From Pseudalkalibacillus berkeleyi (GTDB lineage: Bacteria; Bacillota; Bacilli; Bacillales; Fictibacillaceae): DNA of 64,000 nucleotides. The stretch is from the NCBI RefSeq assembly GCF_021608225.1, contig NZ_JAKIJS010000001.1, positions 1,488,001-1,552,000 of the forward strand, given 5' to 3'. The notes under the pieces are model-generated. The model had not been told where the DNA came from. It searched no databases and saw only the letters and a list, made by a program, of their open reading frames with translations. The position numbers and the translations under genes are program-made. This document shows, piece by piece, positions 42,704-45,235 of the stretch (position 1 is its first letter; each line of letters begins with the position of its first letter).

Positions 42704-42802
42704 ATGAAAACTCAAAACAATGTAGCATTTAATGGGCAGTGTGCATTTGCAGTAAGCTTAGGTAAAAAAGATGTAAAATCCACAGGAAACCACTACGTCA
42801 TG
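42704..42802 (+). pseudogene. 5' fragment of a small conserved gene, truncated
   Basis: AGGAGG then ATG opens a frame starting MKTQNNVAFNGQCAFAVSLG and continuing to about NHYVM, after which the sequence is the antisense of a HAD gene. I think it is the start of a roughly 65-residue YHS-like protein whose end is lost; the family name is from memory and uncertain. The truncation itself is clear from the junction. Confidence 0.55.
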
Positions 42803-42803
42803 T

Positions 42804-43024
42804 CGCCAGCGGTTCCGTTTAAATTCAATCGGCGTTACTTCCCTCTTTTTAAATTGCTCGATGATCGGTTTAGGAACATTCAACTTTATGTTTGTAAAGG
42901 CTACTGGATCAATTGCTTTCGTTACCGAATGCATGCCAAGCGTTTTAATCAATCCTTCTTGGTACCAATCCGAACATAGAAGCGTTTCATCCAAATCGAA
43001 TAACACTAAAGTATATTTACTCAA
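42804..43024 (-). pseudogene. HAD hydrolase, N-terminal fragment
   Basis: TTG-started frame with motif I LVLFDLDETLLCSDW at 6-20, continuing through PIIEQFKKREVTPIEFKRNRW (residue 73). A complete protein of this type (YfnB-like) is about 235 residues. At that point it meets, tail to tail, the truncated gene on the other strand. The core HAD motifs II-IV are missing, so it is not functional. Confidence 0.75.
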
Positions 43025-44233: not shown

Positions 44234-44493
44234 TGCCCGTCACTCCTTATTGTGAAATGGTTTTATAACACTATTATATATGAAGTGCGTGATATGTGTT
44301 TAAAATTAGCCTAGCTAGGTTTAAGCTTTAACATGGTACCAAAATACTGGGAAGCTGTACTAAAACAAATTAAAGCACATAATTCACTTATTTCTTCGTC
44401 GTTCATTAGTGATAAGTAAACCACAACTGAAACGATTCCTTATAATAGACAGTTATACGGATGCAGGCTATTGTTTACTGAGGAGGGATTTTA

Positions 44494-45036
44494 ATGAATG
44501 TTCAATTTGAAACAAAAGAAATGAAGTCGATTACGTTGGATGAAATGATAGATGGACAGTCGAAAACGATGGTGGTGTTTGTTCGTCACCTCGGCTGACC
44601 GATTTGTCGTGAATACCTTACGCAGTTGCGTGAGCGCATAGAAGAATTTAATGAACAAAACGTTAAGATTTATGTGATTGCACCTTCAAATGCTCAATTT
44701 ATTAGTCAGTTTCTTGATGCATTCGGTCCATTTCCATTCCCTATCGTTGGGGATCCAGAACGAGCAGCATATTACGAGATGGGCCACCATACATCCCCTA
44801 AGTGGAAATTGTTATCTAAAGCAGCACTTGGTTTGATATTTGGTAAACTGAAGAATTTCATACCGAAGGATGAACATCAAAAAGAGGTTGTTTTAAAATC
44901 AATGAAAACAGCGGATGTATACATTCAAGGAGGGACCTACCTCTATTCAGAAAATGGGGATTTGTTTTGGCAGCATACCGATTCGTCCCCTGAGGACCAC
45001 GCTAAAATCGACACAGTCTTAGAAAAGCTAACGTAA
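44494..45036 (+). CDS. Peroxiredoxin-like redox protein with in-frame TGA (candidate selenoprotein)
   Basis: From ATG 44494 (AGGAGGG 7 nt upstream) the frame reads to TAA 45034 with one interruption, TGA at codon 35 (44596-44598). Read as selenocysteine it gives FVRHLG-U-PICREYL, a UxxC motif where AhpC/TSA_2 (SelU/SelL-related) proteins have CxxC. The rest is intact: IYVIAPSNAQFISQFL, FPFPIVGDPERAAYYEMG, LFWQHTDSSPEDH; 180 codons in all. A hairpin 18 nt after the TGA fits the bacterial SECIS model. Alternatives: a nonsense mutation, a sequencing error, or translation restarting at TTG/ATG beyond the TGA (136 residues without the active site). No sel genes are in the window. Confidence 0.72.
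44617..44634 (+). promoter_or_regulatory. bSECIS-like hairpin after the in-frame TGA
   Basis: CTTACGC/GCGTGAG, 7 bp including one G-U, with loop AGTT. The loop begins 25 nt after the TGA (accepted range about 16-37) and has G as its second base, as the bacterial SECIS model requires. No bulged U is seen in the stem, unlike E. coli fdhF. Confidence 0.5.
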
Positions 45037-45048
45037 GTTAATTAGAGT

Positions 45049-45084
45049 GCTGACTCAAGGACGGCTAGATGTCCTTGAGTCAGC
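45049..45084 (+). terminator. Terminator of the candidate selenoprotein gene
   Basis: Perfect 14-bp stem GCTGACTCAAGGAC/GTCCTTGAGTCAGC, 8-nt loop, followed by TTAATTT. Belongs to the GCTGACTC family. Confidence 0.88.
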
Positions 45085-45130: not shown

Positions 45131-45235
45131 AAATGAGCGAATTAATTGATGAAATGAGCAGATTAATCACCGAAATGAGCAGATTAATCACCGAAATGAG
45201 CGGATTAATCACCGAAATGAGCAGATTGTTGCCTG
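45131..45235. repeat. Tandem 21-bp intergenic repeat, 5 copies (array 3)
   Basis: AAATGAGC recurs at 45131, 45152, 45173, 45194 and 45215, exactly 21 bp apart; the unit is AAATGAGCAGATTAATCACCG. It starts 46 nt after a terminator, like arrays 1 and 2. One frame reads as an EMSRLIT heptad repeat, but there is no ribosome site and I do not call a protein. Confidence 0.9.

Follow-up and report, generated by a model that had tools for sequence, protein, structure and literature searches.

A predicted peroxiredoxin-like selenoprotein with an in-frame UGA codon in Pseudalkalibacillus berkeleyi and other Bacillales

A peroxiredoxin-like gene with an in-frame TGA codon

In a stretch of 64,000 nucleotides from the genome of Pseudalkalibacillus berkeleyi (the whole of the DNA analyzed, called the window below), a gene at positions 44494-45036 raises the question whether a TGA triplet inside its reading frame is read as selenocysteine (Sec). 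A preliminary description, made from the sequence, had reported one open frame except for a TGA at codon 35, preceded by a good ribosome-binding site. Both observations hold. The translation (MNVQFET...VRHLG*PICREYLTQLRER...EKLT*) shows a single internal stop, the TGA at codon 35 in the context VFVRHLG*PICREYLTQLRER, and the strong ribosome-binding site GAGGAGGG lies 6 nt upstream of the ATG. The coordinates of all features are given in Table 1.

By sequence inspection, the gene stands alone and has a terminator-like inverted repeat behind it, which is likely the end of a single-gene transcript. Short tandem repeats (gaaatgagcagattaatcacc) were noticed just downstream of the gene, at about 45137-45230 of the window. 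A HAD-type hydrolase reading frame on the minus strand (42758-43024) comprises just 88 amino acids and looks cut short; it is possibly a gene remnant.

Table 1. Features of the TGA-containing gene, with positions in the window
Feature	Position	Strand	Evidence
Ribosome-binding site GAGGAGGG	44480..44487	+	Sequence
CDS of a 180-residue peroxiredoxin-like predicted selenoprotein (AhpC-TSA_2 / AhpC-TSA), stop codon TAA	44494..45036	+	Domain matches, orthologues
TGA codon 35, predicted Sec, first position of UxxC	44596..44598	+	Shared by every orthologue; complete set of Sec genes
Cys38 codon, second position of UxxC	44605..44607	+	Replaced by Tyr in 10 of the 80 loci read
Bacterial SECIS hairpin (predicted), 7 bp, apical loop AGTT at 44624-44627	44617..44634	+	Fold, constraint, covariation, loci read
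Perfect inverted repeat of 14 bp, terminator-like, 3' of the gene	45049..45084	+	Sequence inspection

Selenocysteine machinery and further candidate selenoprotein genes

The source genome (G000; 3.5 Mb, 99.97% complete) contains a complete Sec apparatus, located in one region near C1:1.094-1.104 Mb. Both Infernal and ARAGORN detected a tRNA-Sec with a TCA anticodon (59.9 bits, gathering score 47). SelB has 646 amino acids and reaches 353 bits (cut-off 242), with the model covered to its end. SelA (556 bits) and SelD (420 bits) are both far above their cut-offs. Thus, the search for selA, selB, selD and selC that the preliminary description had proposed recovered all four genes.

The interval between selB and selD (L007:10546-13993) encodes a PhnCDE-like ABC transporter and a glycosyltransferase whose match to SenB is below cut-off. 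The binding protein of this transporter resembles a putative selenate-binding family (184 vs 250 bits), and selenium uptake is a possible function of the transporter beside selB and selD.

The selD gene itself (L007:14031-15080, minus strand, on G000:C1) is a second candidate selenoprotein gene. It has an in-frame TGA in SSKGGUGCK, the classical Sec site, and the TGA is followed by a hairpin (GCGCA..GU..UUGCG) whose apical part GCGCAAGUGUUGCG resembles the ACGCAGUUGCGU of the window gene. A third candidate is a peroxiredoxin gene (G000:C2:135820-136137; L144 near 1558) whose frame has a TGA at the peroxidatic position (FTPGUIKEITSW), followed by the hairpin CCUCUU-GGA-AAGAGG. The source genome therefore holds at least three candidate Sec genes, a lower bound. 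Further UxxC candidates occur in the order: a TlpA-like lipoprotein (FTTAGUGLCQ) with the hairpin CAGCUGGUUCAGCUG after its TGA in two genomes of the Fictibacillus group (G026 and G029; L134 and L135), and an AhpC/TSA protein with GTWUPNC in G050 (L136).

Conservation of the TGA codon

Among 60 relatives, 20 orthologues were found, the window gene included. They show 38-74% identity and contain exactly one TGA each, and none is a Cys form. Across the order, 70 of 397 sampled genomes carry an orthologue, with TGA at this codon in all 70 and Cys in none. In the 80 loci that were read, some of them shared between collections (e.g., L047 and L106), the UGA always stands between the G and P of R-x-x-G-U-P, at the same active-site position. 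The residue three positions past the UGA is Cys in 70 of these loci and Tyr in 10; the Fictibacillus form is UPYY. At a threshold of E 1e-15, 398 genomes from the whole phylum yielded no Cys orthologue and just two matches, both from the same order.

The preliminary description had expected Cys or Sec at codon 35 of homologous proteins, and the alignment yielded both: TGA in all orthologues and Cys in distant homologues. The latter belong to other phyla (Phycisphaerales, Verrucomicrobia and Acidobacteria-like genomes); their motif is HLGCxxC, with Cys exactly at the UGA position. The gene thus carries an in-frame UGA at a redox-active position that is occupied by Cys in homologues.

Further disabling mutations in relatives, named in the preliminary description as a sign against Sec insertion, are rare: the remaining frame is undamaged in 69 of the 70 orthologues from the order. 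The orthologue in G204 (L174) is truncated by a TAG about 48 codons past the UGA, though selB is present in this genome, and this copy is probably in decay.

These data bear on two other explanations of the TGA. The gene could be a pseudogene, a redoxin gene killed by a nonsense mutation at its Cys codon, as might be thought from the one in-frame stop, the lack of the gene in several sister species and the TAG-truncated copy of the distant relative G204. However, all 70 orthologues, at 37-74% identity, retain the TGA, 69 of them with the rest of the frame intact, and synonymous constraint is strongest after the TGA. Decay of the window gene is therefore extremely unlikely. A sequencing or assembly error in place of TGC or TGT would need a single base and would account for one genome, but the identical TGA was found in independently assembled genomes of many species. 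As the relatives all have the TGA and 69 of 70 are free of other damage, a base-call error is practically excluded.

The hairpin downstream of the TGA codon

Downstream of the TGA, a hairpin (CTTACGC-AGTT-GCGTGAG) was identified, with 18 nt between the TGA and the stem and 25 nt between the TGA and the loop. Its 7 bp stem, the AGTT loop and both spacings agree with the preliminary description. According to the published model of bacterial SECIS (bSECIS) elements, the loop has 3-9 nt and is located 16-37 nt from the UGA, the stem has 4-16 bp, G occurs in loop positions 1-2 and the energy is ≤-7.5 kcal/mol (PMC13188914). With its AGTT loop at 25 nt, 7 bp and an energy of -9.7 to -15 kcal/mol, depending on the stretch that was folded, the hairpin lies within these limits, and it is conserved across the orthologues.

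The fold energy alone is unremarkable when compared with shuffled sequences (z -0.94 and -1.05) and was dropped as a stand-alone proof of a SECIS element. However, an equally good hairpin at permitted spacing follows only 5 of the 2814 TGA triplets on both strands of the window. That the combination of TGA and hairpin exceeds chance is concluded from the comparative evidence, i.e., the TGA kept in 70 of 70 orthologues and the minimum of synonymous change, and not from the energy. When 24 orthologues were aligned by codon, synonymous change at codons 43-48 was 0.18 of the expected value, the lowest in the gene, vs 0.76 for the median window of codons. Gln44 is always encoded by CAG and Leu45 always by TTG in this alignment, despite six Leu codons in use, and the string CAGTTG is present in 79 of the 80 loci read.

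Covariation was analyzed in 36 distinct sequences. In 99.6% of the hairpin cells the bases are paired, 11 compensatory cells occur at one pair, and no shuffle reaches the score; when the partners were slid as a control, pairing fell to 11-64%. Four of the seven pairs are invariant. Therefore, the covariation, which comes mainly from one pair with changes on both sides, is real but narrow.

Co-occurrence with selB and distribution of the gene

A selB gene above cut-off was found in 179 of 397 genomes and 66 of 135 genera of the order, a widespread but patchy distribution. Sec machinery is therefore common in this group and the gene is not unusual for it; the earlier remark that Sec would be unusual for Bacillaceae was wrong. 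In the order set, all 70 carriers of the gene have selB, and the gene is missing from each of the 218 genomes without selB (hypergeometric probability 6e-29, not adjusted for common ancestry). In the set of 60 relatives, the gene is present in 20 of 46 selB-positive and in 0 of 14 selB-negative genomes.

UGA readthrough is known in Bacillus. The codon might be read here without SelB by a near-cognate tRNA (Trp/Cys), or translation might end in a programmed manner and reinitiate at TTG 44626, from which an open frame runs. Both variants are at odds with the finding of the gene only alongside selB (70/70), with the conserved SECIS-like hairpin and with Cys at the codon-35 position of homologues. 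A product of reinitiation would moreover be without the start of the active-site helix and without any of the conserved residues up to codon 44. We regard such a SelB-independent reading as very unlikely.

Since the full machinery is present and the relatives keep both the codon and the hairpin, the product of the gene is almost certainly a peroxiredoxin-like selenoprotein (AhpC/TSA_2, PRXL2-like), with Sec at TGA35. Insertion of Sec at codon 35, as proposed in the preliminary description, is hence strongly supported at the sequence level by the machinery, the conserved TGA, the hairpin and the co-occurrence with selB.

Within the genus, the gene is present in 2 of 8 genomes, its own included, and no full-length orthologue was found in 6 of the 7 others. 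Absence from most of its own genus indicates that the gene is dispensable. The window gene is closer to the copies of Alkalihalobacillus (70-74%) than to those of most family mates (38-47%). Together with the presence in 2 of 8 genomes, this suggests frequent loss of the gene and perhaps lateral transfer. The flanks of 13 orthologues, some of them spanning only 1.5 kb, contained none of the genes that neighbor the window gene. Therefore, no function can be assigned by association, and operon structure or synteny was dropped as a clue to function. Plasmid carriage was considered and rejected, as one partial match of 34% was all that was found.

Proposed function

The UGA35 codon would be decoded by SelB with Sec-tRNA(Sec), directed by the hairpin 18 nt downstream. 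The predicted product is a cytosolic thiol/selenol redox enzyme of 180 residues with a U-P-I-C active site and a peroxiredoxin fold. In this enzyme, Sec35 would be the nucleophile in the reduction of a peroxide or disulfide substrate and would then be resolved by Cys38 or, where this residue is Tyr, by an outside thiol. We infer that Sec35 is the catalytic residue, because U35 is retained where Cys38 has become Tyr.

A more far-reaching proposal, which seems possible but somewhat short of probable, is that of a Sec-obligate redoxin subfamily in one order of mostly aerobic bacilli, without any Cys orthologue, in which Sec replaces the catalytic Thr of peroxiredoxins. In proteins without the second Cys (UPYY in Fictibacillus), Sec would then be the sole catalytic residue and would presumably work with a small thiol such as bacillithiol.

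Selenoproteins in Bacillales

According to surveys, selenoproteins are mainly found in anaerobes and are concentrated in Thermodesulfobacteriota, Synergistota and Clostridia (PMC13188914). A survey of 2006 counted just three selenoproteins in Bacillales (PMC1794560). The inventory of 2026 includes UxxC/UxxU selenoproteins of the Prx-like type (PF00578) as well as a UxxS family, cd02970; Bacilli, Bacillaceae and Firmicutes are unmentioned in its text (PMC13188914). The kind is therefore already known. A literature search for Fictibacillus or Bacillaceae with selenocysteine found no matching paper, and no description of a Sec-only, order-restricted subfamily was found in the literature searched, though it may still have been described elsewhere.

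Of the 397 genomes sampled in the order, 179 have selB, and with it occurs a predicted redox selenoprotein that was never seen in a Cys form. Such genes are likely annotated as pseudogenes or as short downstream reading frames. As bacilli are easily grown, they offer a tractable Gram-positive system for asking why air-living bacteria keep Sec, and also whether Sec is functional without a resolving Cys.

Comparison with known redoxin families

The window protein matches Pfam AhpC-TSA_2 (PF13911) with 50 bits against a gathering cut-off of 27, and AhpC-TSA (PF00578) and Redoxin also pass; all 25 aligned members match these three families. The best curated family is NCBIfam SelL_rel_redox (NF040769). 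Its match covers the whole protein and all 25 aligned members match it, but the window protein scores 97.2 bits against a cut-off of 120, and a search of the source genome with this model found no match over cut-off. SelL is characterized by the motif UxxU. This diselenide motif is absent here: the window protein has U-P-I-C, and the second position is Cys or Tyr in all 80 loci. The name SelL was therefore not adopted for the function, because the score is below the curated cut-off. Of the relationship to SelU and SelL that had been suggested for the gene, the Cys of distant homologues at the codon-35 position stands, whereas membership in SelL or SelU proper is not supported by the score (97 vs 120 bits) and the motif (UxxC).

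The AlphaFold2 model (pLDDT 87.6, pTM 0.85) has a predicted peroxiredoxin-like fold, and the structures that match it, with Z 17.6-18.8, are those of peroxiredoxins and of human prostamide/PGF synthase. The latter is also the best solved relative by sequence (9us9, E 3e-7), and its C44xxC47 aligns with U35xxC38; the title of one structure entry names a C44S/C47S mutant. The PRXL2 family (SelU/PRXL2A, PRXL2B; PF13911) is thus similar in its domain, in the 9us9 match and in fold (Z 18.3). However, identity in the structural alignment is about 16-20%, and the likeness to PRXL2B is distant. In eukaryotic SelU, the SECIS element is located in the 3' UTR and differs in this respect.

Classical 2-Cys and 1-Cys peroxiredoxins (TxxC) and Sec-Prx (TxxU) share the fold (Z about 17-19). 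In a weak profile alignment with the AhpC of the source genome (probability 52%), U35 is paired with the Thr of TxxC, and the peroxidatic Cys is matched by Cys38; the Sec of the window protein therefore appears to be at a different position. The peroxidatic motif PxxxT/SxxC(U) is absent, the sequence being RHLGUPIC with Sec at the Thr position of this weak alignment.

Also among the closest known systems are the Prx-like thiol:disulfide oxidoreductase selenoproteins with UxxC or UxxU (PF00578; PMC13188914 Table 1) and the Prx-like families of PMC2398784, which share the Prx-like domain, the UxxC motif and the PF00578 match. In contrast to these families, here compared by their description, the group of the window protein occurs within a single order, and at the threshold applied it lacks a Cys orthologue. 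From the sequences compared, it appears to be a subfamily of a known kind that is Sec-only and restricted to Bacillales.
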